From Halichondria panicea (Eukaryota; Porifera; Demospongiae; Suberitida; Halichondriidae), in NCBI RefSeq assembly GCF_963675165.1, contig NC_087377.1, forward strand, positions 16,782,518 through 16,846,517: a DNA stretch of 64,000 bases, written 5' to 3'. This document shows positions 6,137-58,824 of this stretch, one piece after another. Both the position numbers and the translations under genes were made by a program. Every line of letters starts with the position of its first letter. Position 1 is the first letter of the stretch. The notes beneath the pieces are model-generated. The model was not told the DNA's origin. It ran no database searches and saw nothing but the letters and a program-made list of their open reading frames with translations.

Positions 6137-8907
6137 ATGTCTGACTATCTCACAATAGCAGATCTAAAGAGATTGTACCTCGTCACGTTTGATGCTCGAA
6201 TCAAGTGGCGAAACATCTTGCTTATTCTTGATGTACCCTCAGCTACAATTGACAGCATTGGGAAAGAATGGAGCAACAATCCTAATGACTGCTATCGTGA
6301 GGGTTTGAAAGAATGGCTTAATGCAGAAGGAGAGAAAAGCTGGAAAGATATGGTGGAGGCTTTGTCTAGTCCCATCGTGGGTGAATTTCACATAGCCAAG
6401 ACCATCGAGAAAGATCATTTACAGTCTACTTCAGAGGGTAAGCATTAGTTCAGCACAGGAATGCATATCTCATAATTAGTTGGTATAATTTAACCCCCTG
6501 CCCCCCCCCCCCCACACACACACACGCACACACACACGCACACACACGTGACATACACACATAATGTTCTGCAGATGACCAAAATCGCCAGTTGATCAAC
6601 GACAATTTGATCATTTTCCTAGACGAGCTTCTTGGTAAAGGTGCATTTGGAGCAGTCTTCAAAGGCAGCTACGAGGGCGAGATGTGTGCCGTCAAAGTTC
6701 TGCTTCACGATGCTGTGGAGATGCAGGCAAGTATTTCAATCGGCAAAAACGAAGAAGCTAGCAATGCAATTGATCGTGAGTGATTTTCTCAAGTCGTTCC
6801 AGCACCCAAACGTTGTTCAGTTTCTGTCGACTGCCACGCACCCCAAATCAGGTAGTACAATCCTCATTGTTGAGCTGATGGATTGCAATCTGAGATCCTA
6901 TTTCTCTGGCCTTGGTGAAGAGTCCCTCACTAGCGAATGTGAAATTAGTCTCTCCAAAGACATGGCTTGTGGTCTGGCCTTCATTCATAGCAAGCAGATT
7001 ATCCACCGTGACCTCTGTGGCGATAACGTCTTGCTGAAGCTTACACAACCAGTGCCTATCGCAAAAATTTCCGACTTTGGTATGTCACGATTATACGATC
7101 CCTCCAAGCTTAGCCAAACCCTCACAGCTGTTGGTCACCGTAGAGGGTATCTACCTCTCGAAGCTATTCGATTGGATGAGGAGAATTACGATAATAGCGT
7201 GGATGTTTTTTCCCTTGGGGCGATTATGGTACAGATTGTTCGCAAGCTAAAGACAGTCAAATCTGTGGAAGATGGATCATTCCATGTTGCCCGGATCCCT
7301 CGCACACACAGGTTGAGGAAGCTTATCGACAGTTGCTTGCAAGAAGACATGAGGAGGAGACCATCTGCCAGGGACATCTGTGAGTCAATTTACATTTTAG
7401 CTGTTACAGCTAACACTATACACTCTACGAAAAAATCAAATTCGTCTTTATTAATGTTGGTTCGATTTTTAGATGATGACCTGACTAGATGCTCAGACAC
7501 ATTGGAGGCAACAAAGAGAGAGTCCAAGGACATTCAACCAGTCAAGAAGGTGCGTACATGTAGTGTGTGAATGAGATTCCCACAGCAGCAATGCATGGAT
7601 GCTGTCTTGTATGTTAAGCCGTAACTACACATGCGTTTGAGTGTGCCTATAATTATGTACTCCGTTAGCGAAAATTGTCAAAAACAGAGACAGGTGAGAC
7701 GAAATGCACCAGTTTCTTATTTTATTATTGTAGAGCTATATATAGTAGAAACTTTAATCCGATATATCTGTACCATACATTCTATTAGACTGGTGGGCGT
7801 GGCCTCTTAAGCTAATTAGAGAAAGTGATTTAGTGTGCATGCAATTATTGCTACAAGTAACACTCGCTTGTTAGTAGACACTATCCTAATTAATTATACT
7901 CATTCATTATTTAGGGTCCCCCTCTCAGAGAGTTGAGACCTCCACTCACTCTGATATGGAAAAGAGGAAAAAATTTGCCAACCAAGATGGGTGGCGCGGT
8001 ACGGAGTGTTGTTATCGGTGACACGGTGTATGTTGGTGGAGGGTACGGAAATATTAGTCTTGATGACAATTGTGACGAGTGTACAGTGATGAAGCTCAAG
8101 CAAGATCAATGGACCAAACTACCAGAGTACACTGCCAAGTGGTTCTCTATGACATCACTCACTAATCGACTAGTGCTGGTGGGAGGACAGGATCCGGGAA
8201 CCAGTGAAGAAACCAATCAACTTGCAGTGTTTCAAGCAGGAAAATGGACTCGCCCGTATCCACCAATGAACATTGCTCGTTTTTCCTCAACAGCTGTCTC
8301 CTTCAACAACCACATTATTGTAGCTGGTGGGGGTATTAAAGGACAGTTCTCCTCCTCTGTGGAGGTGTTGGACGTGGCATCAAGAAGATGGTACATTGCT
8401 CAGTCACTACCTAGCCCATGATCAGTACTGAAATCGACTCTCATAGGAAACACCCTCTACCTAATGGGAGGGTTGGATCACACTGGGGAAACCAAGTCGG
8501 TGCTCCACGTCAACCTCGATGAACTTATTGCCAATGCCCTTTCTGGGGCAACCAAATCGGACAACTTGAACCTCAAGGAACTCGTTGCAATTGCCCTTTC
8601 CAACCGGGACCCACCCATTCTCTGGCAGACCTTACAGGAAGTACCACTCGTGTTCTCAGCTCCTCTCAGTATTGGGAGGTCACTCTTAGCCGTTGGTGGA
8701 CGGGACGACAGACGCAACCCAAGTTCATCGATCTACCTCTACCAGCCTGACACCAGGAGGTGGGTGAAAGTGGGAGATCTGCCTACTGCACGATACGGCT
8801 GCACATGCTCAGTACTTTCTAGTGGAGAGGTCATTGTAGCCGGAGGACAGACAGAACTATATTCTGATCGTATTCAAATTGTGGATTTCTTTTCTATAAG
8901 TGATTAG
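6137..8907 (+). pseudogene. Kelch-kinase family copy A: Death-kinase-Kelch, inactivated
   Basis: Exons are 6137-6437 (Death domain, beginning MSDYLTIADL), 6575-7379 (kinase), 7473-7549 (short linker) and 7915-8907 (Kelch). The kinase has the Gly loop GKGAFGAVFKG, AVKVL lysine, HRDLCGDN catalytic loop and DFGMSR. Three lesions are visible against copies B and C. A 2-bp deletion near 6782, just after the DRE of helix C, shifts the frame. A CGA-to-TGA change makes a stop at 8419-8421 in the middle of the propeller. The 75-bp exon before Kelch has lost most of its body. The linker exon also lacks an internal 279 bp. The Kelch part carries an extra tandem segment near 8530-8605. An in-frame ATG at 6098 exists upstream, but copies C and F start at MSDY. 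Confidence 0.85.
6500..6550. repeat. C-run and CA microsatellite in the Death-kinase intron
   Basis: A poly-C tract followed by CA repeats. The same intron carries CA repeats in copies B, C and F, so the microsatellite predates the duplications. Confidence 0.8.
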
Positions 8908-9009
8908 TTATTTTGTGGAGTTAACATTGTTCAACGATCAATCTTGATTTTTTTATTGTGTTGAAAAAAGCTTTTCTAGATATTAAGTTCAACATTGAAA
9001 GCATAATTA

Positions 9010-24210: not shown

Positions 24211-24281
24211 ACAATAGTCAATAACAGTAGGTGTGCCCCAATCAAGAGGGTGTGGTACCGGAAGTGGGCGTGGCCTCAAAA

Positions 24282-27182
24282 ATCGAGAAAGATCATCTAC
24301 AGTCTACTGATGCAAGCAATCCTACTGATGTGAAGTCAGAGGGTAAGCACTAGTTCAGCACAGGGATGCATATCTCATACATGATGCTTAGTTTATTAGC
24401 TAGCTTCTATAATATTCACCCGGGTCCCTCTCATAAACACACACACACACACACACACACAATGTTTTTACAGTTGACGAAAATCACCAGAAGATCAATG
24501 ATGATTTAACTGTTTTCCTAGACGAACTACTAGGTAAAGGTGCATTTGGAGCAGTCTTCAAAGGCAGCTACAGTGGCAAGATTTGTGCAGTCAAACTTCT
24601 AATTTACGAGGCTGTAGAGATACAGACAGGTTTCCCAACCGGCAAAAGTGAAGAAGCCAGCAAAGCATTTGATCGTGAGTGTGAGTTTCTCCAGTCACTC
24701 CAGCACCCAAACGTTGTTCTGTATTTGTCGACTGCCAAGCATCCCAAATCAGGTGGTACAATCCTCGTTGTTGAGCTGATGGATTGCAATCTGAGATCCT
24801 ATTTCTCCAGCCTTGGTGAAGAGTCCCTCACTAGCGAATGTGAAATTAGCCTCTCCAAAGACATGGCTTGTGGTCTGGCCTACATTCATAGCAAGAAGAT
24901 TATCCACCGTGACCTCTGTGGCGATAACGTCTTGCTGAAGCTAACACAGCCAGTGCCTATCGCAAAAATTTCCGACTTTGGTATGTCACGGCTATACGAT
25001 CCCTCCAAGCTTAGCCACACCCTCACAGCCATTGGTCACCGTATGGGGTATCTACCTCTCGAGGCTATTCGATTGGATAAGGAGAATTACGATAATAGCG
25101 TCGATGTTTTTTCCCTTGGGGTGATTATGGTACAGATTGTTCAGAAGCTGAAGACGGTCAAATCTGTGGAAGATCGATCATTCCATGTTGCTCAGATCCC
25201 TCACACACACAGGTTGAGGAAGCTTATCGACAGTTGCTTGCAAGAAGACATGAGGAGGAGACCATCTGCCAGGGACATCTGTGAGTCAATTAAATACATG
25301 TGTTGTACATTTTACCGCAAATAATTTATGAGTCTACGATTCCGACATTTTGTTTGGAAAAAGTTCCTTATTGAAGATTTAACTTTTACTTTAGATTCTT
25401 CACTGACAAGCGACTCTGACACAGTGGAGGCAACAAAGAGGGAGTTCAAGGACACTCAAGTAAATCAACTTTTACATCAAGTATCTGAGAAAGACACCCA
25501 TTCACAAGCATCTATCGATCGGCTTCAAGCTGAGCAAGTTTGTGGACTAGAAGAAGTGACCACTCCTCAACAAGAACAGTTTGAAGTTCAACCCAGAGAA
25601 ATTGATCATCTAGTGAAGTTTCTACAGATACAACCTCGGGTGGACACTCAACCAGATAATAACTTGACTGCAGATGTTGACCTGACAAGTGGCTCGGACC
25701 CAGTGGAGGAAACAAAGAGGGAGTCAAAGGACCCTCAACCAGTCAAGAAGGTGCGTACATGTAGTGTGATAATGAGATTCCCACAGCAACAATAGTATTG
25801 TACCTTAACATGCATGGATGCTGTCTCATGTGTTAAGCCGTAACTACACATCCGTTTGAGTGTGCCTATAATTATGTACTTCCTTTAGTGAAGATTGTCT
25901 CGTTCTGTTGTAGAATTTTCATTAATGATATTCACGTCTGTGTTTGATTTCCACCAACGTTCCCCTGTACAGGCACACGGGGGACAGACTGAGCACAAAG
26001 ATGCTGAGCTGGTCAGGAGAGACGCCATCATTCAACAGCAGAGACTGGTGACACAAAATGCACCATTATATTATTGCAGAGCTATAGTAGAAGCTTTGAT
26101 CTCTTATAATCGTACTGTACATTCTATTAGACTGGTGGGCGTGGCCTCTTAAGCTAATTAGAGAAAGTGATTTAGTGTGCATGCAATTATTGCTACAAGT
26201 AACACTCGCTTGTTAGTAGACACTATCCTAATTACACTCATTCATTTTTCAGGGTCCCCCTCCCAGAGAGTTGAGACCTCCACTCACTCTGAAATGGAGA
26301 ATAGGAAAATACATGCCAATCAAGATGAGCTTCTCGGTACAGAGTGTTGTTATCGGTGACACAGTGTATGTTGGTGGAGGGATTGCATACGGTGATCGTG
26401 ACAAGTGTACAGTGATGAAGCTCGAGCAAGATCAATGGACCAAACTACCAGAGTACACTGCCTATAGGTTCGCTATGACATCACTCGCTAATCGACTAGT
26501 GCTGGTGGGAGGACATGATTCAAGAAACAAAAAACCCACCAATCAACTTGCAGTGTTTGAATCAGGGGAATGGACTCACCCGTACCCACCAATGAACATT
26601 GCTCGTTATTCCTCAACAGCTGTCTCCTTCAACAACCACATCATTGTAGCTGGTGGGTGTGATGATAAAGTACGTGCCCTCTCCTCTGTGGAGGTGTTGG
26701 ACGTGGCATCAAGAAGATGGTACATTGCTCAGTCACTACCTAACCCACGATCAGTACTGAAATCGACTCTCATAGGAAACACCCTCTACCTAATGGGAGG
26801 GTACAATCACACTCTGAGTGCAACCAAGACAGTGTACCACGTCGACCTCACTGAACTCGTTGCAAAGGCCCATTCGAACCTGGACACACCCACTCTCTGG
26901 CAGACCTTACAGGAAGTACCACTCGTGCGGTCAGCTCCTCTCAGTATTGGGAGGTCACTATTAGCCGTTGGTGGATGGGACGACAATGTCAACCCAAGTT
27001 CATTGATCCACCTCTACCAGCCTGACACCAGGAGGTGGGTGAAAGTGGGAGACCTGCCTACTGCACGACTCAACTGCACATGCTCAGTACTTCCTAGTGG
27101 AGAGGTCATTGTAGCCGGAGGACAGACAGATGCACTTACCAATACTCAAACTGTTGATTTCTTCTCTATAAGTGCTAATTAG
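24282..27182 (+). CDS. Kelch-kinase family copy B: kinase-linker-Kelch, 5' truncated
   Basis: The last 61 bp of the Death exon remain (24282-24342), starting at IEKDHLQS; everything upstream, including the ATG and the Death fold, is replaced by unrelated DNA. The rest is open: kinase exon 24474-25280, linker 25395-25750, short exon 25973-26047 and Kelch exon 26253-27182. Splice sites and phases match copy C. The kinase keeps the Gly loop, AVKLL lysine, HRDLCGDN and DFGMSR; the APE-equivalent reads LPLEA. No in-frame ATG precedes the catalytic lysine, so the copy can only make a full kinase if an upstream exon supplies a start. The Kelch exon has six GG-bearing blades, with its own loop residues (for example GGIAYGDRDK, TAYRF, ARYSST). 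Could be a truncated pseudogene with a still-intact 3' part. Confidence 0.8.
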
Positions 27183-27382
27183 TTATTTTGTTAATTGTTT
27201 CTCTTTAATTGTGCGATGAGTTTATAACGATATTGATATTCTTTTTATTATGTTGAGACAATTAAGTTGCAACAGAATTTTATCGCATATAATTATAGTT
27301 ATTATGATGACATGAAGTGGTACATACATAATTACATTGCCAGAAAATAGTACAAAAACAGACAAAATAATATTTAACAGTC

Positions 27383-27895
27383 TCATAACAAGTTCAGGTC
27401 CTTGGTTGGGGTCTTGTCCGAGGGTAGGGTGGACGCCTTCTCCTAGAATACAAAGTCTATCTCCTCTTCCGAGTCAGACAGTGAGGGGTGGGGCTCGGGA
27501 ACTGAGGGGTTAAAGAGTCACATGATCATAGTCACACTGAGTGGCCAGTTTACGTGAGGCCCCTCTCTTTCTTAGCAGCATAGTAGGCTTATCTTTTCCG
27601 GCCCCCAGTTATCCTAATGGAACTGAGGGGTTAAAGAGTCACACGGTCATAGTCACACTGAGTGGCCTTCTTAGCAGCATAGTACGCCTAAAGGTGTGTG
27701 TGTGTGTGTGTGGGGGGGGGGTCGTACATGATTGTACATTGCACACCTCAAATAGGACACACTATAGCTGACCTTGAATGACTTTAAGGGACTCTACAAA
27801 GTATGACACAAATACATTTTCCAGCTAATGTACTCTGTACCTCTACCTCCATTCTCAGTGCCTCTTCTTGTCTCCTCAACACTTGGCCGGGCTGA
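27383..27895 (-). pseudogene. 3' exons of the unrecognised minus-strand gene (copy B)
   Basis: The terminal exon (27383-27501) carries TAG in place of the Trp codon of FWEK. An upstream exon near 27843-27893 encodes PGQVLRRQEEALRMEVE, and a small one near 27670-27690 encodes AYYAAKK. It is near-identical to 36003-36514. Function unknown. Confidence 0.45.
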
Positions 27896-27899
27896 AAAA

Positions 27900-28500
27900 T
27901 GGCCGCATAACTGGGGGCCGGAAAAGATGAGGGGCGGAAAAATCAAACAATAGTACAGAAGACAAATCGATCAGTCAATCTACAATTAGAACTAGAGCAC
28001 TGAAGTGCTACCCTCGGCAGTGTCCTGTAGCCAGGATAAACAACACATGGACACATTCAAACTGGTAGTGTGATGAAGGGTCTGGTACACGTACTGTACA
28101 ATGTCATGTACAAATATTGTGAGCTAGTGTTCTCAATTGACACACGTTTCCCTGTACACACCTAAACTGCATACATTGAAGCATACCTTGTATACAAGTG
28201 CATGTACATACAGACTAGTAAGCATGCTAGGTTCCCATTCTTTGTACTGTACATTCAATACTACACAGTTAACTCATTGCACTGCATAACTACACATTAT
28301 ACACACGTACCTTGTTCTTGATGAAGGTTCTTCTCAATGCCAGCTAATGGTTAGCTCATGCACAAGCAGTCGATTACCAGGCCAACTTTCGAGGAAGTGC
28401 GGCTTGAGATGGAGGCTAGGCTGCACATAATTATAATGGGCGTGGTTACATATAAATGGGCTTTGCTACAATATTCTTCTCAAAGAGCTCCACACAAATA
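27900..28500. other. Spacer between the two convergent or tandem minus genes
   Basis: Contains about 28 bp identical to the USF first-exon donor region (28317-28345, 'accttgttcttgatgaaggttc'), cut off abruptly. This is a fragment left by recombination between repeat units. Otherwise no gene is seen. Confidence 0.5.
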
Positions 28501-28630: not shown

Positions 28631-31113
28631 CTACTGTTGAGAGGATTGGTCCACCGTTTCCATAGACATTGAATCTTGCCCGGGGCTACCAGCACTTGAG
28701 TTGCTTGTGAGCACATTCTGAGCCAGAATCAGAGTGTTGAGCAGACTAGCAGCAGCCGCGGCAGAGAGACCACCACCACCACCACCACCGCCATTGTTGT
28801 TGGCTTGTGACAGCATGGAGGATTTCGGTACAGGAGTGGACGGAGAAGTGGTCGTGCTCGCAATAGAGGATAGAGTTTGTACGAGTGAGCTTAAGAGTGG
28901 TGTGTTTGGATTAGAGGCTCCAGTCGGCAGCGATGATTGTAAGAGAGGAGAGAATTGTGACGAAGCTGACAAGTGCATAGGTTGTGCTTGCGAAGGTGTC
29001 AGGCTGGAGACAATGCCACCTAGTTGTTGTAGGGATGAGATAGAACTTGGTGTTTGGTTGTGTGCCAGTGAGGTCAACAGAGGGCTGTTGGTGAGGTTCT
29101 GCGCCAGGGATAGTAGTAGTTGCTGTGCTGCTACATTGTTAGTTTGTTGTGTGGATTGTTGTGGAGGGGAGACAGAAGTGGTCGGTGGTGAGTGGGTCAC
29201 TACTGTGTTGAGGAGACTCTGGGCCAGAGGAGAGTTTAGAAGTTGCTGGTTAGGTTGCTTTTGACCAGAGGAAGCAGCTGCATCGATTCCAAACTGGATA
29301 ATCTGTGCTCGAAGAAATGCGTTCTCTTTCTCTAGGACTTGGATCTGGTTTTGAAGCATTGCTAAAGCGTTGGTTGATTTCTCTGCGATTTTGGCACTGG
29401 CTGTGAGTTGTTCGTTTTGAAACACAAGCTCTTTCAAGTAGTCGACTGTCTTGTCCAGTACCGTTCCCTTGCTGTACACATACTGCAGTCAGGGAAACAT
29501 GACGTGAGGGTGAGACATGTACGTGGAGATACAAAAAAAACATGCTTAACTATTAGCATATTAATATTATGTGCAACTACAATCATGTGTTATATACGAT
29601 GGCCTCTGCTGGATTCTATGCTACTAGTAACTAACATAACACTGGGCTCTACACTAATGCATGCTTAGCAATTTAGGCTTAAAAAAACCAGACATTTCGA
29701 GGGCTAGTACTTTTCTAATAGAAACAAAATTATAACTGAAAAATGAAGGACTGCGAAAACCAAGTTAGTAGATATTTCGATGGCTTTTCCAATAGTACTT
29801 TAGTACACACACTCACAGACACACACACTCACCCCGACAATGGAACCAGTAGTTGCGTCTTTCTTCTGACAAGCAGGCACTATCTGAGCCAGTACCTTGA
29901 TGAGCTCGTTGATCCTGTCCCGACGCCGACGCTCAACTGGGCGTGGGAAGAACAACAACAACCGATAATTATCGTGTTTAGGGCATGTACAATGAAGCTG
30001 AGCCAATTGGCAAAATGAATGAATCTTGACCTCACACACACACACACACACACGCGTACACCTACTGTACAGTATAAAATTAAAATCAAGGCATACTTAG
30101 ACCTTTACAGCATGGATGGATAGCCCCCACACAGCAAATAAGTTATTAGTTTTAGAAGTGGCAAATTTGTATTTTGTGGGAAATGCTTCTATTTGATTAT
30201 GACCACGTACGTACATGTACATCTGTTGTACACTATAACTTTCAGTATTGAATTTGCAGCACCTTCATTGTGTGTAGCCTTCCTCTGAGCTTCCCTGTTG
30301 GCGGCCATATCCCCAGACCTGCAAACCAACCACCATAATAACAACACTCCTCACAGATACCGTATTACAGCGAGCATATGCGAATTTTTGCCAGAACGAA
30401 ATAGTTAGATCGCAAAGGGTTGCCGATTTGGCTGATTCGCAAAGGTTTTCACCAACAGCAAAATATTCTAGTAATACGGTATGTAGCAAGAATGATGCTT
30501 TCCCTAACATACTGTCATACATGTTATGCAGAGGTAGGCAATCACGTGAACTGTGGACTCACAACTGCATTTGAACGATGGGGTCGGCCGTGTGATAATC
30601 CATAGTTGATATCCCGCTCATCTTGGGTGCTATAGGTCGACCCATTGCATGCAGTATCTCAGCACTACTGGATGGTGGGATCATCACATACAGAGGACCT
30701 GAACACACACAACAACATAATAAAAACTGACTATTAACATTTTTCAACACCACTTCCAAGAAACCTCAAACATTAGCAATAATACTCATGGTTCTACATG
30801 TAATTAGTATGTACAAGCACTTGGACAACTTATCGAAGCCTATATATAACTTTTGGATTTGCCCCAAAAAATGTATCGTCACACTGATAAATTTGGCCTC
30901 CATTACTCACCATTTTGGCCAGACTCTGAACCAGAAGAGGTGCTCCTAGTGATGAGGAACTGAGATGAGGGGGTGGTCTGTCCACCTTGCTGCATCTGGA
31001 TGAGGGCGTGGCCTATAGCGTTGAGGGTGGAGCCATCCTCAGAGGTCATGTCAGAGGGCAAACCATCATCGCTAGTGAGCGTGTGGACCTCCTGTGTGAG
31101 TGGGCAGGAACAA

Positions 31114-32463: not shown

Positions 32464-35400
32464 ATGTCTGACTATCTCACAATAGCAGATCTAGGAGATC
32501 TATACATAGCTACGTTTGATGCTCGAATCAAGTGGAGAAACTTCTTGCTAGTTCTTAAAATACCCTCGGATACCATCGACAGCATTGGTACAAAATGGAG
32601 AGATGATCCTGATGACTGCTATCGTGAGGGTTTGAAAGAATGGCTGAAAGGTGGTGAGAGACGCTGGGAAGATGTTGTCAAAGCTTTGTCCAGTCCCATT
32701 GTAGGCCACGTTGGCATAGCTAATACCATCGAGAAAGATCATCTACAGTCTACTGATGCAAGCAATCCTACTGATGTGAAGTCAGAGGGTAAGCACTAGT
32801 TCAGCACAGGAATGCATATCTCACACATGATGCTTAGTTTATTAGCAAGCTACTATAATATTCACCTGGGTCCCCCTCATAAACACACACACACACACAC
32901 AATGTTTTTACAGTTGACGAAAATCACCAGTTGATCAACGATGATTTAACTGTTTTCCTTGACGAGCTACTAGGTAAAGGTGCATTTGGAGCAGTCTTCA
33001 AAGGCAGCTACAGGGGCGAGATTTGTGCAGTCAAACTTCTAATTTACGAGGCTGTAGAAATGCAGACAGGTTTCCCAACCGGCAAAAGTGAAGAAGCCAG
33101 CAAAGCATTTGATCGTGAGTGTGAGTATCTCCAGTCACTCCAGCACCCAAACGTTGTTCTGTATTTGTCGACTACTAAGCACCCCAAATCAGGTGGTACA
33201 ATCCTCGTTGTTGAGCTGATGGATTGCAATCTGAGATCCTATTTCTCCAGCCTTGATAAAGAGTCCCTCACTAGTGAATGTGAAATTAGCCTCTCCAAAG
33301 ACATGGCTTGTGGTCTAGCCTACATTCATAGCAAGAAGATTATCCACCGTGACCTCTGTGGCGATAACGTCTTGCTGAAGCTAACACAGCCAGTGCCTAT
33401 CGCAAAAATTTCCGACTTTGGTATGTCACGGCTATACGATCCCTCCAAGCTTAGCCACACCCTCACAGCCATTGGTCACCGTATGGGGTATCTACCTCTC
33501 GAGGCTATTCGATTGGATAAGGAGAATTACGATAATAGCGTAGATGTTTTTTCCCTTGGGGCGATTATGGTACAGATTGTTCAGAAGCTGAAGACGGTCA
33601 AATCTGTGGAAGATCGATCATTCCATGTTGCTCAGATCCCTCACACACACAGGTTGAGGAAGCTTATCAACAGTTGCTTGCAAGAAGACATGAGGAGGAG
33701 ACCATCTGCCAGGGACATCTGTGAGTCAATTAAATAATTAATGTGTTTTACATTTTACCGCAAATAATTTGTGAGTCAATTGTGTGTTGTACGATTCCGA
33801 AATTTTATTCGGAAAAAGTTCCTTATTGAAGATTTAACTTTTACTTTAGATGCTTCACTGACAAGCCACTCTGACACAGTGGAGGCAACAAAGAGGGAGT
33901 CCAAGGACACTCAAGTAAATCAACTTTTACATCAAGTATCTGAGAAAGACACTCATTCACAAGCATCTATCGATCGGCTTCAAGCTGAGCAAGTTTGTGG
34001 ACTAGAAGAAGTGACCACTCCTCAACAAGAACAGTTTGAAGTTCAACCCAGAGAAATTGATCATCTAGTGAAATCTCTACAGATACAACCTCGGAAGGAC
34101 ACTCAACCAGATAATAACTTAGCTGCAGATGTTGACCTGACAAGTGGCTCGAACCCAGTGGAAGCAACAAAGAGGGAGTCAAAGGACACTCAACCAGTCA
34201 AGAAGGTGCGTACATGTAGTGTGATAATGAGATTCCCACAGCAACAATAGTATTGTACCTTAACATGCATGGATGCTGTCTCATGTGTTAAGCCGTAACT
34301 ACACATCCGTTTGAGTGTGCCTATAATTATGTACTTCCTTTAGTGAAGATTGTCTCGTTCTGTTGTAGAATTTTCATTAATGATATTCACGTCTGTGTTT
34401 GATTTCCACCAACGTTCCCCTGTACAGGCACACGGGGGACAGACTGAGCACAAAGATGCTGAGCTGGTCAGGAGAGACGCCATCATTCAACAGCAGAGAC
34501 AGGTTAGACAAAATGCACCATTATATTATTGCAGAGCTATAGTAGAAGCTTTGATCTCTTATAATCGTACTGTACATTCTATTAGACTGGTGGGCGTGGC
34601 CTCTTAAGCTAATTAGAGAAAGTGATTTAGTGTGCATGCAATTATTGCTACAAGTAACACTCGCTTGTTAGTAGACACTATCCTAATTACACTCATTCAT
34701 TATTCAGGGTCCCCCTCCCAGAGAGTTGAGACCTCCACTCACTCTGAAATGGAGAAGAGGAAAAGACATGCCAATCAAGATGGGTACCTCGGTACAGAGT
34801 GTTGTTATCAGTGACACGGTGTATGTTGGTGGAGGTACTGCAGTCAATGATCGTGACATGTGTACAGTGATGAAGCTCGAGCAAGATCAATGGACCAAAC
34901 TACCAGAGTACACTGCCAAGTACTTCGCTATGACATCACTCGCTAATCGACTAGTGCTGGTGGGAGGAAATGATCCAAGAAACAACCAACCCACCAATCA
35001 GCTTGCAGTGTTTGAGTCAGGGGAATGGACTCACCCGTACCCACCAATGAACATTGCTCGTTCTTTCTCAACAGCTGTCTCCTTCAACAACCACATCATT
35101 GTAGCTGGTGGGGATGATGATAAAGGACGTACCCTCTCCTCTGTGGAGGTGTTGGACGTGGCATCAAGAAGATGGTACATTGCTCAGTCACTACCTAACC
35201 CACGATCAATACTGAAATCGACTCTCATAGGAAACACCCTCTACCTAATGGGAGGGTGGGATCACACTGGGATAACCAAGACAGTGCACCACGTCGACCT
35301 CAATGAACTCATTGCAAAGGCCCATTCGAACCTGGACACACCCACTCTCTGGCAGACCTTACAGGAAGCACCACTCGTGTGGTCAGTTCCTCTCAGTATT

Positions 35401-35634
35401 GGGAGGTCACTATTAGCCGTTGGTGGACAGGACGACAGTGTCAACCCAAGTTCATCGATCCACCTCTACCAGCCTGACACCAGGAGGTGGGTGAAAGTGG
35501 GAGACCTGCCTACTGCACGACACAACTGCACATGCTCAGTACTTCCTAGTGGAGAGGTTATTGTAGCCGGAGGAAAGACAAAACCATTTGGTAATTATCT
35601 TGAAACAGTTGATTTCTTTTGTATAAGCGATTAA
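32464..35634 (+). CDS. Kelch-kinase family copy C: intact Death-kinase-linker-Kelch protein
   Basis: Five exons, 32464-32788, 32914-33720, 33850-34205, 34428-34502 and 34708-35634, join in phase to 829 residues. Residues 1-95 are a Death domain (KWRNFLLVLKIPSDTIDSIG, then a Trp-containing helix). Residues about 120-375 are a protein kinase: GKGAFGAVFKG, AVKLL Lys, DRECEYL Glu, HRDLCGDN, DFGMSR; the APE motif is LPLEA. Class is tyrosine-kinase-like or TKL by overall pattern. Residues 378-520 are a Glu/Gln-rich linker, partly helical. Residues 521-829 are six Kelch repeats, each with a GG pair and a Trp. No signal peptide or membrane helix is seen, so it is probably cytosolic. A plausible role is binding a ligand through Kelch and signalling through Death-fold contacts and phosphorylation. 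This is the reference copy of the family. Confidence 0.9.
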
Positions 35635-35754
35635 TTAGTTATTGTAATATGTTGTGCATTGTTAACAATCTTTTTGAAAAAAGTTTTCTAATTAAGTTCG
35701 CATATTTCGTTTATTTTTATTCGAACTTATTTTAACGGAGGATGGACAATTAAT

Positions 35755-35990: not shown

Positions 35991-36002
35991 TATTTAACAG
36001 TC

Positions 36003-36514
36003 TCATAACAAGTTCAGGTCCTTGGTTGGGGTCTTGTCCGAGGGTAGGGTGGACGCCTTCTCCCAGAATACAAAGTCTATCTCCTCTTCCGAGTCAGACA
36101 GTGAGGGGTGGGGCTCGGGAACTGAGGGGTTAAAGAGTCACATGATCATAGTCACACTGAGTGGCCAGTTTACGTGAGGCCCCTCTCTTTCTTAGCAGCA
36201 TAGTAGGCTTATCTTTTCCGGCCCCCAGTTATCCTAATGGAACTGAGGGGTTAAAGAGTCACACGGTCATAGTCACACTGAGTGGCCTTCTTAGCAGCAT
36301 AGTACGCCTAAAGGTGTGTGTGTGTGTGTGTGGGGGGGGGGGGGTCGTACATGATTGTACATTGCACACCTCAAATAGGACACACTATAGCTGACCTTGA
36401 ATGACTTTAAGGAACTCTACAAAGTATGACACAAATGCATTTTCCAGCTAATGTACTCTGTACCTCTACCTCCATTCTCAGTGCCTCTTCTTGTCTCCTC
36501 AACACTTGGCCGGG
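36003..36514 (-). CDS. 3' exons of an unrecognised minus-strand gene (copy C)
   Basis: On minus: an exon 36464-36514 encoding PGQVLRRQEEALRMEVE between a TTTTCAG acceptor and a GTAC donor; a short exon starting at 36307 encoding AYYAAKK; and a terminal exon 36003-36121 encoding PEPHPSLSDSEEEID, FWEKASTLPSDK and a DLNLL end. The Trp codon is intact here. The join between the short exon and the terminal exon is not resolved in phase. I do not recognise the protein; the charged helix and acidic tail suggest a cytosolic adaptor-like C-terminus, which is a guess. It converges on Kelch copy C. Confidence 0.4.
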
Positions 36515-36939
36515 CTGAAAAATGGCCGCATAACTGGGGGCCGGAAAAGATGAGGGGCGGAAAAATCAAACAATAGTACAGAAGACAAATCGATCAGTCA
36601 ATCTACAATTAGAACTAGAGCACTGAAGTGCTACCCTCGGCAGTGTCCTGTAGCCAGGATAAACAACACATGGACACATTCAAACTGGTAGTGTGATGAA
36701 GGGTCTGGTACACGTACTGTACAATGTCATGTACAAATATTGTGAGCTAGTGTTCTCAATTGACACACGTTTCCCTGTACACACCTAAACTGCATACATT
36801 GAAGCATACCTTGTATACAAGTGCATGTACATACAGACTAGTAAGCATGCTAGGTTCCCATTCTTTGTACTGTACATTCAATAGTACACAGTCAACTCAT
36901 TGCACTGCATAACTACACATTATACACACGTACCTAATC

Positions 36940-42482: not shown

Positions 42483-44035
42483 AGCTATAATATAAAGCTA
42501 CGACAATTCAGATGTAGATTAAATCTGGAATGTACCTTGCCATGTCTTGAACATGCACACGCATACATTGCATGCAAAAATAGTTTTTTTATGCATGAGT
42601 CTAATCTATAGCTACACAATTGTATTGGCCGCATCTCCTTTAACACGCAGGAAGAAACATCAATGATCATTAACTCTATCTGCTGCCATTGACTATAAGT
42701 TGGACTTACTATTCCTCACGAATACTAAACTATTAATTTTTATCTTTACACTATATACTTGTAATAATTTATACACTTGTACACCTATCCCTGGTGGTGT
42801 GTTAATTGTTATTATTGTTGTAACATGCATGATAATTATTACTACATGTTTTACTTCATTGAAAGACATAAATTTCTGTCATTTTAACACTAAAATACGA
42901 TGATGCATCCCATATAACATATGTGTTTTTGCTGTGCTATAGCTAGCTTACTCTCAGTGTCATCCTTCATTTCAATCAATCACCTTCATGGATGTTCATA
43001 ATAATTATATGATTATCGTCAATTCTAACAATAACTCCCTTTCATTATATAGGTAGTATTGTTTTGGCTTATAGCTATGTACTGCATGCATACTCTCATT
43101 AATCATTTTTCATGTTGATAATTATGAGCTTTGTTTACTGAGCATCACAATGGCATGCATCAAAATAATAATTATGTAAGAATAACATCAAAATTGAGTC
43201 ATCATGGTCATGTTTTATACCGTAATCGTTAACATAAACTGCAAAACTTGTTCATACAAATCAATGCCAAACTCATCAGAAGGTGCTAACGGATTAACAG
43301 CTTGCTGTAGGAGAGCAAAATTCTCTGAACTTAGCCTTATTGGCACCTCAGGCACAACTATAGAACGTCCCTGAGACGGGATGGGGCCTTCCATATCAAT
43401 TCCATATTCTTCCTCCACATTCTCAAAAAAATCCAAAGCTGCGAGTCGTGCTGCAAAAGTAGTGCCCCTGTTGTAAACAACTGGTGTGGAGACTTACGGT
43501 GTGCAGTTCGGATTGAGTGATGGTTCCATCCACCAATGAACAGTGCAAGTGCCTGATTAATACGTGGAATGAACACATTATAATGAAGGGAATACAGATG
43601 TGTCTCATTCAAACAGTCTAATAGATCCACTTGTTCCATAAAGTAAAACAGCTTGTAAAAGAGAATAGTCACAGCGGTGCATGTCCCTCCATATAGTCGC
43701 TCTATGCGTTGATTATGGACCGAGGCTCCTACAATCACACTCCTCATATCATGTCCTAACATGTGACGTGCGACCAATACATTTTCCCCACCTTGGTCCA
43801 TTCTTATAATTATACGAGATGGCAGCTGATGCTTTTGAACTGCACACAAAAATAATTCGTACACGGTTGACGATTTATTATTGCCACAACACTTCAAGAA
43901 AGTCACCAGCCTACTGCAGCCGTCAATGCAGCCACGAGTGACGATTCTCCATCTAATAAGCTTATGATGTGAATCTGAAACAAGATAATTCAACCATAAT
44001 TAATTTTAATGTGATGAAAATTAGTCAATACTATA

Positions 44036-47710: not shown

Positions 47711-48071
47711 ACACAGCAAATTCGTTTTCTTTTGGCACTATTCACCTCTCATAAGAAAGGGGGTGTATCTTGTAGAGAGATAATACTGAGAAGCTGAGAT
47801 TATCAGTGGTTTTGTGGGTCCTTCACCAGTTCACTTCCTATCTATTATCCCTTGACTTTAATAGAGCTAGCTAGGGCCTATAAGGAGTGAGTAGCCACCA
47901 AGGTGAGTGCGTGATTCATATCTCATTCTATAGCCCATCTCAAAGTTGCAATAGTCTCAGTTTAACTTCACTGAATAATATAATGAGCCTTTTAGATTGT
48001 ACATGCTAAAATTGATGTGCACCATATGCCATTGTATGAAATGTCCTGGTCCACTCACAGGCTAACTGTCA

Positions 48072-50859
48072 ATGGCCACTCAAGCAACCCCCGACCATTC
48101 TCCAGAGTATCTGTCCTTCCAAGAGAACTTTGAAGCATTGGTGTCCACATTCAAAGCTCAACCTGCTGCATACGCTGATAGCCTCTTCTCCAATGGCTAC
48201 ATACCAGATGAAGTTCTCGAGTACTCTAGACTAAATGGAGTTATGAACTCGGATAAATCTCGAAAGATTCTGGATACTATCATCCATCAAATTAAGCTCA
48301 ATCCCAGTGTATTCCACGACTTTATCGCTGCCATTGCTGGCCCTTCTACTGACGATGTTGTCAAGAAGCTACATGATAGTTACGAGCTTCACAAGACTGC
48401 GACCAGCCGTGTTGAACAGCCGCAACTCTCTCCACCCCCACACCAGCAACCTCCACCAGAGGCTCCGACGTCCTTCAGCTTCCCACACCTCAACACCTCT
48501 AGCCTTGATGATGATGTTAAAATTGAATTAGAGGATCGGCTCATACGTGATACAAGAGAAATGATTATTAGGTTCACTGCTTTTACTCTAATTATACAAA
48601 GATCATTTGAAAACCAACGGATCCCATTGGATCAGATTAAAGATTCTCTTCTCAGCCTCGAATCTTTCAACGACGGGATTGGAGTTAAAGTCCTTGAGGA
48701 AAAAGATAAGCAAAAGATTGAAAATGCCAAAAATTTGTCCCAAGTCTTCATGACTCTACGTGCTTACATCTCCTTCTTCAATTATGAGATAGTGCAGTAC
48801 CTCATCCAGCTGCTGGGATCACCAGACGACCGAACACAACTGCGTGAGTATTGTTCTGCACTTAATGAGTTCTGCCAGCGAAATGTGTTTGAAGTTCCGG
48901 CCGAAGCTTTCTCTTCAATATCTCGTATCAAAACGGCTAAAATGTTTGTTCTCAAGTGCACTGAGCGAGTAGCCACACTGGAGTATGTAAAAAGGCTGAT
49001 TCCGAGAATTGCTGAAGCCCTTGGTCTACAAAGAGCAGCGCTACAACTCAGTTCAGTCAGACAAGGCTGCTTGGAGCTCCACTTTCTCATCACTGTAGCT
49101 GTTGCCAAGTGTATCTACCCAGTGTCTCCTACTGTACAGTCTGCTCTCAGTGCGATGGGGGTCAAAGTTCTCACCTGTGGAAGTACGGATGAGGTGGAGA
49201 CATTACTGCTGGAACAGTAAGTTCTTGAAGAGGCACTATATACCCGTACTCCTGGCATAATTATAATAATTATATACCGTAAGTTAATTAACTAACAAGC
49301 GTAGGCCCTATATATATTATAATGAATATATAATTACAAGTATGTACATGTCATGTACAGGGATCTGAGCAAACTCAAACTAGAAGGTGTTGAGAAGATG
49401 TCTAAAGACACAAGAACGAGCACGACAACCTTCACTCAAATGAAGGACACTAAAGGTATGAGTGTTTGGCCAACTTGATATCCTATAATCTTTCTTTTAG
49501 ATACAAGAGGCTCGGACACAGTGGAGGCAACAAAGAGGGAGTCCAAGAACACTCAACCAGTCAAGAAGGTGCGTACATGTAGTGTGATAATGAGATTCCC
49601 ACAGCAATAATAGTATTGTACCTTAACATGCATGGATGCTGTCTCATGTGTTAACCGAATATACGCCATGACGTCACGTTGCGAAACACCCCCGCAGCCA
49701 TATTGATTTTTTAAAAATGCACAAATTTAATCAGTTCTTAGAAAACTGTTTGTAACTTGTCGACTTTTGATTGTGCAAGTTAGACTAGGAAGAAAGACCA
49801 GTCAAAGATCTACAAGATGATGCCCGAATCGCTTACTATCTCGAAGGATTGGTTGTGATCTGCTTCTGTCAAGCGGTAAGTAGTAGTTACGTATAATACT
49901 GCTTTGTTACATGGCTTTTTAGATTCGCTAGAAGCTTCATACAGCCTAATACTTATTGTAGTAAGTATATAGGACGTAGCTGTAAAGTTTGTAGTGCTGA
50001 GAAGCGTTGCTTAGCGTTTTTTTGTGCAGCTACACAAGGTACTGGGGACGGTGGCTTATAACCTGAGGCAGCTATGTGTAAAGAGAAACAGTGGCAGTGG
50101 TAAAAAGGTGAGTACAAGCTTCCTAAGCTGTATGTTGACTCTACTGAATGTTTAGAGTCTACTTTAGGGCCTGCATCACCTATTATAGACTTCAATTTAT
50201 TTAAAATCAGGCCCATAAAATTAATATTAAAAGTACAACCGGTTGTAGTTGCTACAGTACTTGTTTGTACTTATTGCATGCGTTTGTAGAATCGCTAGAA
50301 GCTCTGGTACTGACTGTACATGGTAGATAGTAGTTGTATCTAGAATTAGTAGTGCTAAGCAGCATTGATTAGCCTTCTTTGTGTACGTACGTACACTACA
50401 TGTAGGTGTGACTGGATCCAATAATCCGGAGGTGGGGCCACGTATGTACAGTGAACAGAGGAACAGTGGCAGTAGCAGCGAGGTGAGCCAGGATACGTAT
50501 TACGTTTGTTGACTACACTAACATTATGTTTAGAACTCGTGTGTATAACCTATTATGTAATTATAATTATATAGCCCTTGAATAGTAAAATAATAGCCTC
50601 GCCTTTTGTTCTTTGAGCCTTGAAAAACTTTTTTTTTACCATCAGTAACGATTATAATTCTTTGCGTAACTAACAATAGATATAAAAAGTGTCTGATGTC
50701 TGTGGCTACTGCTGATACTTTGCTGTCACACTATGCACTGCCACTGGGTCCCTTTTGGAGTACCTTGGAGTCGCCTCTGTCAAGAGTAGAATACACGGTT
50801 AGACACACGCACACATACAAGCATACACAAACACTCCCGTACACACACACACACACACT

Positions 50860-51029: not shown

Positions 51030-52766
51030 TCCATTTACACGCATACACGCGCACAGACAATGCCATGTACAGGAAGGTTGACGTTGGTGGTAGGACGTTC
51101 ACAACAGTGCTCAGCTCATGCAGTGTCGATGTCCTATCCAGATCTACATTTTTGATAATTTAATGTTGTAATTATTGTTGTACTGTACCGGGTATTTGAT
51201 GTTCTTGTTTTTATTCTATACATTGAGTGAAGCCATTTTATTTGTTGCATTTACCTTCAAGCTCCTCTCCAAACTGTTCTCAATCAGAAAACTCATCATC
51301 ACTGCCCTCCATGACTGGCACATCTCTGTTACCTTGCTGTACTCTGGCTACTGGGTCTTCTATGTCAATCTGTGCAGGTCCCAGAGCTAGTGGGTAGCCT
51401 ACAATTTCATGCAGCACCTCCTCACTGATCTAGTGTGGCCTCTTAGCCATGCTAGTAGCTCTATATAATTTTTTGATAGTGTTTGTTCATGCCAATAATT
51501 AATATTTAATTTGTAAACTAGCTACATATTCAAGCGTGTATTGCCAAAATATTTTCTGCACAGTACGAAGTTTTGACTGCATAATTATATACTTACCTGA
51601 ACAGTAACTGGACGTAGTAGTAGCGTTAAAATAGCAGCAGCCGCTCCCTGGTTTCTTTAGAGCAGAGAGAAGCCGGATTACTGCGGTTGACACAAAAATG
51701 CGTCTATGGCGTCATACCGACATACGCATAAATGCATCTGCGGCTAATTAGAGAAAGTGATTTAGTGTGCATGCAATTATTGCTACAAGTAACACTCGCT
51801 TGTTAGTAGACACTATCCTAATTACACTCATTCATTATTCAGGGTCCCCCTCCCAGAGAGTTGAGACCTGCACTCACTCTGAAATGGAGAAGAGGAAAAG
51901 ACATGCCAATCAAGATGGGCATCTCGGTACAGAGTGTTGTTATCGGTGACACGGTGTATGTTGGTGGAGGGTTTGCAGACAATGATCGTGACAGGTGTAC
52001 AGTGATGAAGCTCGAGCAAGATCAATGGACCAAACTACCAGAGTACACTGCCATGTACTTCGCTATGACATCACTCGCTAATCGACTAGTGCTGGTTGGA
52101 GGATATGATCCAAGTAACAAGAAACGCACCAATCAGCTTGCAGTGTTTGGGTCAGGGGAATGGACTCACCCGTACCCACCAATGAACATTGCTCGTAATT
52201 CCTCAACAGCTGTCTCCTTCAACAACCACATCATTGTAGCTGGTGGGCGTAATGAAGAACCTACCTCCTCTGTGGAGGTGTTGGACGTGGCATCAAGAAG
52301 ATGGTACATTGCTCAGTCACTACCTAACCAACGATCAGTACTGAAATCGACCCTCATAGGAAACACCCTCTACCTATTGGGAGGGTACGATCACACTGGG
52401 AGTGCAACCAAGACAGTGCACCACGTCGACCTCAATGAACTCATTGCAAAGGCCCTTTCCAATCTGGACACACCCACTCTCTGGCAGACCTTACAAGAAG
52501 TACCACTCGTGTGGTCAGCTCCTCTCAGTATTGGGAGGTCACTATTAGCCATTGGTGGACGCGATGACAGAGACAACCCAAGTTCATCGATCCACATCTA
52601 CCAGCTTGACACCAGGAGGTGGGTGAAAGTGGGAGACCTGCCTACTGCACGATACAGCTGCACATGCTCAGTACTTCCTAGTGGAGAGGTCATTGTAGCC
52701 GGAGGACTGACAAAACCGTTTACTAGTATTCAAACTGTTGATTTCTTCTCTATAAGTGCTAATTAG
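48072..52766 (+). CDS. Kelch family copy D: CARD-like domain, helical domain, Kelch (no kinase)
   Basis: Exons 48072-49216, 49361-49455, 49501-49568 and 51843-52766 join in phase to about 743 residues. The first exon encodes 381 residues. Residues about 15-105 look like a CARD-type Death fold ([19 protein letters not shown], then helices ending FIAAIAG). After a Pro/Gln linker, residues 150-300 form a helical domain with [16 protein letters not shown] and [14 protein letters not shown], seen in multidomain proteins of sponges and cnidarians (from memory). Exon 3 encodes [19 protein letters not shown], the same junction peptide as copies A-C. The Kelch exon is 924 bp with six blades. The 75-bp exon is absent, but the phases still fit. 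The intron before Kelch is 2.3 kb, with unrelated DNA from about 49654 to 51744. No kinase is present, so the propeller is attached to a different signalling module. Confidence 0.8.
49654..51744. other. Unrelated DNA in the copy D intron
   Basis: Sequence leaves the family consensus after 'gatgctgtctcatgtgtta' and rejoins it at 'ctaattagagaaagtg'. Between lie low-complexity CA repeats (50805-51045) and two similar blocks beginning 'cgctagaagct' (49927 and 50293), perhaps a small duplication. No gene is supported. Confidence 0.5.
50805..51045. repeat. Compound CA microsatellite with CGCACGCAAA interruptions
   Basis: About 240 bp of CA repeats, with variant units CACGCACGCAAA and CATACGTA. Open frames across it are low-complexity artefacts. 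Confidence 0.95.
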
Positions 52767-54640: not shown

Positions 54641-54649
54641 CTGAGGAAT

Positions 54650-55540: not shown

Positions 55541-55562
55541 GGGTCAACTTTTAATACTAGCA

Positions 55563-58500
55563 ATGTTTTCTTTGCGAGATGATGCTGACTTGAGGGAGTT
55601 TGTGCTGGAGAATGTGGAGCACTTTGGAGAGGAGAGAGTTCTAGGAACTGGCTCCTATGGCTCTGTTCAAGAGGTCAGTCACTGCATGCTCTGTTTCTGT
55701 GCACTGTCTCTAGTGTATCTGCTAGCTATTCAAGTGTGACTGCCTCCATGCACAGGTGATGATCAATGGTGAGGTGTATGCAGCCAAGAAGATCCACGAG
55801 GTTCTCCTGGAGACGGACGAGCGTGGTGGAGTGGCCAATCTAGCTGGGAACTACCGCCGAGAGTGTCGACTCATGGCTCGCATCCGTCACCCCAACATCA
55901 CCCAGTTCATTGGGCTGTGTTTCGTGACTGGCTCTCGACTGCCCCTCCTGATCATGGAGAGGCTGGACTCAAGTCTGGACGATCTCCTGGAGTCCACCCC
56001 CAACATCCCCCTCTCTGTCACCCAGTACATTCTGGTCTGTGTGGCTCGAGGGCTGCTCCACCTGCATCGTGAGTCCGTGGTCCATCGTGACCTCACTGCC
56101 AGGAACGTCCTGCTGACGGCATCTCTGAGAGCCAAGATCACAGACTTTGGTAACTCTCGTATCGTGAATCTGGAGCCTGGTCGACTGGCCAGGACTCTGA
56201 CGAGGTTTCCTGGGACACTGGTGTACATGCCGCCCGAGGCCCTCTCTGACAGAGGTCACAGTGTGTACGGACCCAGTCTGGACGTCTTCTCTTTCGGAGT
56301 GCTACAACTGTTTGCACTCACACAAGTATGTGTGTAGTTAATGATATTCATAGGTTAGATTCCTGGTGACCTTTCATGCAGTGAATTACCTTATAAGTAT
56401 TGTGGTTGTATGTGTTGGGGAGATCCCCCTTTAATATTGTTGACCTTCAGCAAATGCATTTTGTATGTGTATGATTGTGAATATACGTGCACTCATTTTC
56501 TCCAGACATACATAAAAACAATCATGACAGTCAGTATTCACATGTTCTTTCACTCGTGTCATTGGACTAGGTGTTTCCAGGAGATCTCCTTGCCCCCACG
56601 TACAGCGACCCCAACAACCCAGACCACCTCCTGGCTCGCTCAGAGTTTGAGCGTCGAGGTCCCTACACGGCTCTCCTTGAGAGGAGTCTGGCGGGTGGAC
56701 GTGAGCACCCTCTGTTTGGTCTGGTGAAGGAGTGTCTGGCCAACACCCCAGAGAGAAGACCGACCACCGCTGAGCTCCTCTCGTCTCTGGAGGAGGTGGA
56801 GAGGGAGATGGACGGAGGACTGCTCCAGCTGGACATTGGACGAGTGAAGACTGCCAGGACCCTCAGGGCAAAGGAGAAGAGGATAGAGGCTCTACAGGTG
56901 AGTCCAGTCCAGTGAGCTAGTAGGTGCAAGGGTCTGACACTGCATGCTGTACTCTGTTTTCAGAGAGAGGTGGTCCAGAAGGACAGGATACTGGAGAGGA
57001 AAGATGAGCAAATAGTACAGAAAGATGAGCAACTTACTGAGAAAGATGCACTTCTAGTGCAAAAAAACAACCAACTCGAACAGAGCGTTGCACTACTGGC
57101 ACAAAAAGACGATCAACTTGTTCAAAAAGATGAGGAAGTAGCGGACAAAGATACTCAGCTGGCTAGACAGCAACAGGTCAGCAGAACCAGTTTATTTTAT
57201 TCATTATAAGCTATTTTGTTCAACGAGCTAGCATGTTGATAACCTTTTTTTATACAGATATTGAATAGTGTCCGTGCTAATGCTGCCACCAAAGATGGTG
57301 TGATTGCTGACAAGGACAGACGACTCAGTGAACAAGAGTCAACGATCACTGATCTCATTTCCCAGAGAGAGGCTGCTCTAGTTGAGAGGGCCGCTCTCTT
57401 ACAGGTATTATAGTAGTCACCAAATGCACACACTCTTATACGCTAGTATTATACTACAATAATGATATTTGTTTGCGTACATGTAGCTAAGTGTGTCGAT
57501 GAGATTCCAACAATAGTAGTATACCTCAACAATTGATGCTATTGTATAAATCATGCTAAGCCGCTAACTACACATCCGTTTGAGTGTGCCTATAATTATG
57601 TACTTCCTTTAGCGGAAATTGTTGTTTGTTCTCGTTCTGTTGTAGAATTTCCACTACTGATATTCACGTCTGTGTTTTAATTCAAAGATTTCCACCAACG
57701 TTCCCCTGTACAGGCACACAGGGAACAAATTGGGCACAAAGATGCTGAGCTGGTCAGGAGAGACGCCATCATTCAACAGCAGAGACAGGTGAGATTAGTA
57801 CATTAGAGAAAGTGATTTAGTGTGCATGCAATTATTGCTACAAGTAACACTCGCTTGTTAGTAGACACTATCCTAATTACACTCATTCATTATTCAGGGT
57901 CCCCCTCCCAGAGAGTTGAGACCTCCACTCACTCTGAAATGGAGAAGAGGAAAAGACATTCCAATCAAGATGGGCATCTCGGTACAGAGTGTTGTTATCG
58001 GTGACACGGTGTATGTTGGTGGAGGCTATGCACACAATGATCGTGACATGTGTACAGTGATGAAGCTCGAGCAAGATCAATGGACCAAACTACCAGAGTA
58101 CACTGCCAGGTACTTCGCTATGACATCACTCGCTAATCGACTAGTGCTGGTGGGAGGAAATGATCCAAGAAACAACAAACCCACCAATCAACTTGCAGTG
58201 TTTGAGTCAGGGGAATGGACTCACCCGTACCCACCAATGAACATTGCTCGTACTTTCTCAACAGCTGTCTCCTTCAACAACCACATCATTGTAGCTGGTG
58301 GGCGTGATGATAAAGGACGTACCTCCTCTGTGGAGGTGTTGGACGTGGCATCAAGAAGATGGTACATTGCTCAGTCACTACCTAACCCACAAACAGAACT
58401 GAAATCGACTCTCATAAGAAACACCCTCTACCTAATGGGAGGGTTCGATCACACTCGGAGTGCAACTAAGACAGTGTATCACGTCGACCTCAATGAACTC

Positions 58501-58824
58501 ATTGCAAAGGCCCTTTCCAACCTGGACACACCCACTCTCTGGCAGACCTTACAGGAAGTACCACTCGTGTATTCAGCTCCTCTCAGTATTGGGAGGTCAC
58601 TATTAGCCGTTGGTGGACGGGACGACAGACGCAACCCAAGATCATCGATCCACCTCTACCAGCCTGACACCAGGAGGTGGGTGAAAGTGGGAGACCTGCC
58701 TACTGCACGATACAACTGCACATGCTCAGTACTTCCTAGTGGAGAGGTCATTGTAGCTGGAGGAGAAACAAAACCGTTTACTTATATTCAAACTGTTCAT
58801 TTCTTCTCTGTAAGTGCTAATTAG
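55563..58824 (+). CDS. Kelch family copy E: tyrosine-kinase-like kinase, coiled coil, Kelch
   Basis: Seven exons (55563-55673, 55756-56325, 56571-56897, 56964-57176, 57258-57404, 57714-57788, 57898-58824) join in phase to 789 residues, starting MFSLRDDADL. The kinase occupies about residues 20-310: GTGSYGSVQE, AAKKI lysine, YRRECRLM glutamate, HRDLTARN, DFGNSR and MPPEAL. HRDLTARN is close to the tyrosine-kinase HRDLAARN and differs from the HRDLCGDN of copies A-C and F. Residues about 330-455 are a coiled coil built of near-heptad QKDEQL-type repeats (KDEQIVQKDEQLTEKDALL). The 25-residue exon before Kelch (HKDAELVRRDAIIQQQRQ) continues the same periodicity and is shared with B and C. The Kelch propeller has six blades. 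No Death domain, signal peptide or membrane helix. Coding DNA of the kinase exons is more GC-rich than that of copies A-C and F. Confidence 0.9.

Follow-up and report, generated by a model that had tools for sequence, protein, structure and literature searches.

A 64,000-nucleotide stretch of the genome of the sponge Halichondria panicea (contig C1, NC_087377.1, positions 16782518-16846517; called the window below) contains genes A to E, each with an exon for a Kelch propeller. These exons are part of a large family, in which about 30 residues of the DA and BC loops are under strong diversifying selection and the rest is constrained. Short tracts are exchanged between the Kelch sequences of the sampled paralogs, also where the signaling heads upstream of them are of different types. 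We consider it likely that the family is a germline repertoire of intracellular receptors, in which a signaling head is joined to a six-bladed Kelch propeller with a diversified face.

Diversifying selection on the Kelch exons

Kelch exon E (57898..58824, plus strand) encodes the whole six-bladed propeller in a single exon (Pfam Kelch_1, 1.3e-28). Codon positions are counted along this exon, so that residue n starts at 57898+3(n-1). Seventy-five Kelch entries were extracted and 64 distinct copies were kept; three of the entries removed were loci C, D and E again, five were identical to others, and copy A, L051 (both with stops) and L014 (altered C-terminus) were excluded. Alignment A1 holds 60 sequences and is without L027 (identical to D), L035, L042, L044 and L068. 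Codon models M1a and M2a were compared on the 64 copies with our own implementation on two FastTree topologies. Twice the log-likelihood difference (2dlnL) was 1822.8 and 2247.9 for the two trees, and the ratio of non-synonymous to synonymous rates (dN/dS, omega) was 11.0 and 13.5 for ≈10% of the codons. Both trees gave the same 30 sites with a posterior probability above 0.95. These span 57976..58785 on the plus strand of exon E and correspond to residues 27, 28, 44, 46, 51, 71, 72, 88, 95, 119, 120, 136, 140, 141, 167, 183, 188, 189, 224, 225, 241, 245, 272, 273, 290 and 292–296.

The variation is unevenly distributed along the exon, and the scaffold is almost the same in all 64 copies. Among 306 well-filled alignment columns of the 64 copies, 92 are invariant in the protein and 22 have an entropy above 1.75 bits, with up to 13 different amino acids at a single site (residues 44 and 88). 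The pattern is repeated in each blade: strand A is directly preceded by one or two variable residues, another follows the GG pair at once, and one or more stand a few residues further on. An earlier note on this DNA, made from the letters alone, had described such clusters in copies B to E and had proposed positive selection on a binding surface. All four copies contain the three sets of short strings that it quoted, and of the 30 selected sites 2, 3, 3, 2 and 6 (16 in all) fall in the five clusters that it named in E. Its statement that most differences change the amino acid agrees with the counts: among B to E, 28 of the 30 selected codons change the residue and none is synonymous only, while the other 278 codons include 41 that change the residue and 15 that are synonymous only. 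There is some circularity in these counts, because B to E belong to the copies on which the 30 sites were defined. The expected selection was borne out as well, with a per-site dN/dS far above 1 at the variable sites.

To avoid picking and testing sites on the same data, we chose sites on B to E and scored them, without any tree, on the 60 other copies. At the 18 sites with at least three residues among B to E, the proportion of non-synonymous differences (pN) was 0.504 and that of synonymous differences (pS) 0.038, a ratio of 13.4. The ratio was 3.37 at the 50 sites with two residues in B to E and 0.55 at the 238 codons that are invariant there. Eleven distinct copies on contig C6 were scored separately and gave a pN/pS of 7.5 at the 30 sites vs. 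0.77 elsewhere; 18 of the 23 sites with at least four residues among them fall inside the set of 30. One of these copies, L076, is also the only C6 copy among the 64. The Death-like exon and the kinase exon K1 of these genes served as controls, each with 16 distinct copies; their 2dlnL was 9.2 and 26.5, respectively, with one site each.

The selected positions also differ in composition from the rest. Tyr (11.1 vs. 2.4%), Arg (13.1 vs. 5.7%), Phe (7.0 vs. 1.8%) and Trp (3.9 vs. 2.2%) are enriched, as is Ser. Binding surfaces are often rich in such residues.

The selected sites map to one face of the modeled propeller

An AlphaFold2 model built from 60 family sequences is a six-bladed propeller with a predicted local distance difference test (pLDDT) score of 89.5 and a predicted template modeling (pTM) score of 0.89. 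Among the Foldseek matches listed, with E-values from 1e-17 to 1e-15, are KLHL3, designed Kelch proteins, KLHL20 and KLHL12; KEAP1 stands lower. With Kelch_1 at 1.3e-28, the six-bladed model and Foldseek hits down to 1e-17, the exon product belongs to the Kelch-repeat β-propellers. Exon E matched Kelch families only, and no WD40 family.

In this model all 30 selected sites fall in DA loops (11 sites) or BC loops (19 sites), which together make up 129 of the 308 residues, whereas the main strands and the AB and CD loops hold none. The enrichment has a P-value of 5e-13, or 5.6e-5 among loop residues alone. Loops were named by hand on the basis of the strands listed; a short D strand (residues 215–217) was also placed by hand, and DSSP bridges of 1–3 residues (e.g., 88–89, 136–137 and 290–292) were counted as loop; many selected sites are such isolated bridges within the DA and BC loops. 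In an antiparallel four-stranded blade the DA and BC loops lie on the same side. According to the model, then, the selected sites share one propeller face and are not scattered over both faces and the strands.

The earlier note had likened these positions to the ligand contacts of KEAP1, and the comparison fits. In KEAP1, Tyr334, Tyr525 and Tyr572 come right after GG, Arg483 lies further on in a BC loop, and Ser363, Arg415, Ser508 and Ser602 stand just before strand A, as placed without an alignment. All of these are among its ligand-binding residues (PMC6891428).

Family size, genomic arrays and signaling heads

We searched the genome (131 Mb, 39 contigs) with Kelch exon E. At least 128 Kelch exons were scored, all with E-values of at most 2.1e-162, after 467 candidates at first look, and only 2 of the 128 have an in-frame stop. 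On contig C1 the minus strand carries all 53 exons listed at 15.48–16.14 Mb and the plus strand all 47 at 16.71–17.39 Mb, with three more near 11 Mb; C6 has 21 and C28 four. The main array thus consists of two inverted arms and is ≈1.9 Mb across.

A head was assigned to each Kelch exon by position: among the matches listed for the modules, the one closest upstream on that strand was taken, up to a distance of 7 kb. By this rule 68 of the 128 exons follow K1 (a Death-like domain plus kinase), 42 follow a second kinase, K2, and 12 follow a module of 384 amino acids, while none was found for six. Twenty six-kb loci gave a similar picture: 15 have a Death-like exon and K1 before the Kelch exon, three have K2 and two the 384-residue module. 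In the window, genes A, B and C are of the K1 type, E is of the K2 type and D carries the 384-residue module.

The K1 stretches shown contain HRD and DFG in 15 of 15 cases and ICAVK in 14 of 15. Death is the top Pfam family for the domain in front of them, matched in 7 of 14 members with a best E-value of 0.003; the gene C copy scored 12.2 bits vs. a cut-off of 22.6. The K2 exons are nearly constant, as 45 of 48 family members among the matches listed are 95–100% identical to the K2 of gene E. Against the PDB its top match is an EGFR chain, and IRAK4 is also among the matches. The 384-residue module has no Pfam match above the cut-off, and the PDB search gave no match up to an E-value of 10. 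Nine distinct frames of the window were scanned with Pfam (22 long frames are listed; the first exons of D and E are partly modeled) and had no match to BTB, BACK or NACHT.

Two reports touch on Kelch proteins in sponges. Kelch-motif genes are among those differentially expressed after microbial signals (PMC6208332), and niche-dependent families include Kelch propellers and kinases (PMC11000336). In another paper, the domains that a figure legend gives next to Eph-like kinases include a Kelch motif (PMC6993872); the relevant passages of PMC10037820 are about plants. Among the papers listed by searches of the open-access literature, none reports the present family. Among genome contigs and viral contigs searched for relatives, stretches matched the patterns and none was confirmed.

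Other clusters resemble the heads described above. Among the matches listed, kinase frames 45–51% identical to K2 form two large clusters on C3 (0.87–1.71 Mb) and C11 (4.4–6.5 Mb), possibly as part of other receptor families of similar design. Clusters on C5 (2.73–3.18 Mb) and C12 (5.9–6.14 Mb) are related to the second half of the 384-residue module and to the Death-like domain.

Exchange between copies

Linkage within the Kelch exon decays over very short distances. For 63 copies on C1 and 50 two-state sites, the squared correlation (r2) was 0.15 below 10 nucleotides (nt), 0.06 at 25–50 nt and 0.016–0.019 beyond, which is about 1/n. None of 1000 permutations matched this decay. The 21 synonymous scaffold sites alone behaved likewise, with an r2 of 0.23 below 15 nt and 0.018–0.027 beyond 40 nt (0 of 1000 permutations). 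At 24 sites the 63 copies display 60 different combinations.

The copies do not sort by place or by partner. Scaffold distance was 0.0436 within arms and 0.0434 between them, genomic distance within an arm was unrelated to it (rho 0.03), and the last intron and the 3′ flank likewise had no structure by arm or module in the 45 or 44 copies whose flanks were long enough. A lasting tie between Kelch exons and their module was tested and is unsupported, since scaffold distance is 0.0435 both within and between modules. Copies C and L024 differ by only 0.9% in the intron and 0.6% in the 3′ flank, yet 28 of 34 variable residues are different. As linkage is gone beyond 40–50 nt and sorting by arm or module is absent, the copies exchange short tracts. 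We read the sequence patterns as the probable outcome of frequent short-tract gene conversion across the arrays, combined with selection that keeps the contact residues diverse.

Genes in the window

The predicted model of gene C (plus strand throughout) is one frame of 829 amino acids with a single terminal stop, in five exons with GT-AG sites. Exon 1 (32464..32788) encodes the Death-like domain, exon 2 (32914..33720) the K1 kinase, in frame (Pkinase, 1.9e-37), exon 3 (33850..34205) a linker, exon 4 (34428..34502) a short linker that looks coiled-coil-like by eye, and exon 5 (34708..35634) is Kelch exon C. No transmembrane-like stretch was found in the 829-residue product, the maximal 19-residue hydropathy being 1.27, and we therefore infer that it is cytosolic.

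A duplicated segment carries genes B and C (24282-28312 and 32728-36935); its two parts have ≈95 and 99% DNA identity. Most of the Death-like exon has been lost from gene B, in which a remnant at 24252..24350 (+) matches residues 79–111 only. It is followed by the K1 open frame (24437..25321, +; the exon proper starts at ≈24480 by analogy with gene C), a linker open frame (25325..25792, +) and Kelch exon B (26253..27182, +). Gene D comprises the 384-residue module (48066..49217, +), which is CARD-like by eye only, a linker match (49503..49607, +) and Kelch exon D (51843..52766, +), whose coding sequence is identical to that of L027, a copy ≈549 kb distant. The K2 exon of gene E is found at 55726..56334 (+; Pkinase, 2.9e-31).

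Gene A (6137..8904, +), with a Death-like region at 6137-6445, K1 at 6623-7567 and Kelch at 7915-8904, is probably decayed, judging from its Kelch copy (7915-8907), which has an in-frame TAG at 8419-8421 and a match of only ≈70–72% to the other copies. It was excluded from all counts. At the other end, the next gene (61829..63104, +) has a Death-like exon (61829-62161) and a K1 kinase (62262-63104), and its Kelch exon was not found inside the window.

A (CA)n-type run of 18–66 nt lies just 5′ of the K1 exon, adjoining the splice acceptor, in 8 of 15 loci examined. Such runs are present at 24437-24461 and 62229-62254 in the window and in L039, L041, L043, L047, L048, L052, L053 and L057, and they might promote recombination. 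Two minus-strand features lie within the array. The open frame at 28631-29485 has no Pfam match; it looks like a basic helix-loop-helix leucine-zipper protein of a USF-like kind. An integrase core domain (rva_4, 2e-59) at 43358-43996 probably belongs to a transposon.

Interpretation and alternatives

In the receptor repertoire that we favor, each gene would combine a head, whether Death-like domain plus kinase, second kinase or CARD-like module, with a Kelch propeller as sensor. Variable non-self ligands, either microbial proteins or allotypes, would be bound by the variable face and would thereby activate the attached kinase or death-fold signaling. Conversion would keep the scaffold uniform and reshuffle the contact residues, while selection would keep the copies different. 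An immune role is what we infer from this design. More tentatively, an early-branching animal might here possess an antibody-like germline system, in which more than 100 Kelch sensor exons, encoding a paratope-like face, would form a shared pool, recombine freely and be joined to three alternative cytosolic heads, with combinations of specificities particular to the individual.

Several observations weigh against the repertoire or narrow it. The K1 control is not flat (2dlnL 26.5, next to 9.2 for the Death-like exon). Recombination inflates M2a: a 2dlnL of 234.9 with 13 sites and an omega of 4.2 came from scaffold columns shuffled among copies, and 117.7 with nine sites from the unshuffled scaffold once the 30 sites had been removed. 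We therefore claim only the main set of 30 sites. By pN/pS, scaffold constraint is not very strong (0.55 outside the sites variable in the window). Fourfold third positions differ more at variable codons than elsewhere (0.12 vs. 0.048), as does the path-averaged pS (0.137 vs. 0.064), so that the mutation rate or the age of the selected codons may be modestly raised. Heads were assigned by position alone and not from transcripts, the Death match is weak, and the CARD-like module is without database support. The usual K1 lysine motif is missing from L054, the K1 stretch of L047 has one stop, and so does one of four K2 copies (L046). Finally, the basis is one genome in one assembly.

Loop residues of little importance could drift freely, and the selected sites do sit in loops. 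Simple loss of constraint is nevertheless disfavored, since a pN of 0.50 exceeds several-fold both the divergence of synonymous sites (0.04–0.06) and, in 45 copies, the means for the last intron (0.076) and the 3′ flank (0.126); the AB and CD loops, moreover, hold none of the 30 sites. We give relaxed constraint almost no weight. Targeted hypermutation of these codons, by an AID-like (activation-induced deaminase) or template mechanism and with or without selection, would accord with sites that vary at codon positions 1 and 2 only (residue 27 is always NNC) and with the ≈2.5-fold excess at fourfold third positions. By parsimony, a selected codon changed on average 13.2, 16.0 and 5.6 times at its positions 1, 2 and 3, and other codons 1.14, 0.93 and 1.53 times. 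As 34% of possible third-position changes at selected sites are non-synonymous, about six changes at position 3 are expected from the amino-acid effect plus the background synonymous rate, close to the 5.6 observed. At the variable codons synonymous divergence is 0.65–2.5 times background depending on the count, but non-synonymous divergence is at least 12 times, and we regard hypermutation as very improbable. A template-type mutator resembling diversity-generating retroelements was considered for the NNC/NNT sites and set aside after the codon-position count. An assembly artifact or mixed haplotypes might be suspected from the identical copies (D = L027; L029 = L030 = L031) and from some C28 and C6 matches that score equal. 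An origin of this kind is extremely improbable, because the 30-site pattern is seen in 64 distinct open copies, and 11 distinct copies on C6 vary at largely the same sites.

Other functions could be served by the same face. Substrate adaptors of the KLHL/KEAP1 kind, diversified for many endogenous or toxic substrates, come to mind as the best natural Foldseek matches listed are the Kelch domains of KLHL3, KLHL20, KLHL12 and others, with KEAP1 lower. In the nine window frames neither BTB nor BACK was matched and the heads are kinases or a CARD-like module, which makes this very improbable. The variable face might instead read conspecific labels of self and non-self, as the fungal analog het-d/het-e serves allorecognition (PMC1805685). 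More than 100 copies would fit broad sensing at least equally well, and we think allorecognition in place of microbe sensing rather unlikely. If the repertoire of Kelch receptors is real, it offers concrete receptors and contact residues for testing how an animal without adaptive immunity recognizes microbes or kin, and the family would be a natural library of binders on one scaffold.

Comparison with known systems

KLHL proteins and KEAP1 are BTB-BACK-Kelch adaptors, and we know of no hypervariable family among them. They share the six-bladed Kelch fold with the sponge family and bind their ligand on the same face (contacts for KEAP1 from PMC6891428). Gene C differs in its order of Death-like domain, kinase, linker and Kelch, and BTB and BACK were unmatched in the frames scanned. 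The IRAK/Pelle kinases resemble the K1 type, in which a Death-like domain, albeit with a weak match, precedes a kinase, and IRAK4 is among the PDB matches of K2; to our knowledge no IRAK has a Kelch sensor. Sponges also have large families of intracellular immune receptors in their NLRs, some with CARD or DEATH heads as described for Dysidea avara (PMC12909245). These differ in having a NACHT plus LRR architecture, and the abstract of that paper mentions no Kelch sensor.

The closest known analog appears to be the fungal HNWD family, which is built around a NACHT core and not a kinase. In HNWD proteins (het-d and het-e of Podospora anserina) four codons per WD40 repeat are positively selected, two in the d-a loop and two in the b-c turn, all on the same face, and the 10 members evolve in concert (PMC1805685). 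Both families thus have a β-propeller recognition domain, selection at d-a and b-c loop positions of one face, and exchange between copies. The HNWD propeller is of the WD40 type, whereas that of Halichondria is Kelch. HNWD genes exchange repeat units and vary in repeat number, whereas the Kelch family keeps six blades in one exon and exchanges tracts of ≈50 nt or less. HNWD has 10 members, whereas the Kelch exons number at least 128 and follow three types of head. Because the propeller type, core domain and unit of exchange differ, the Kelch family is not a member of HNWD. If our reading is correct, the fungal solution, in which selection and exchange between copies diversify the d-a and b-c loops of a propeller, would have arisen independently in a sponge with another propeller and other heads.

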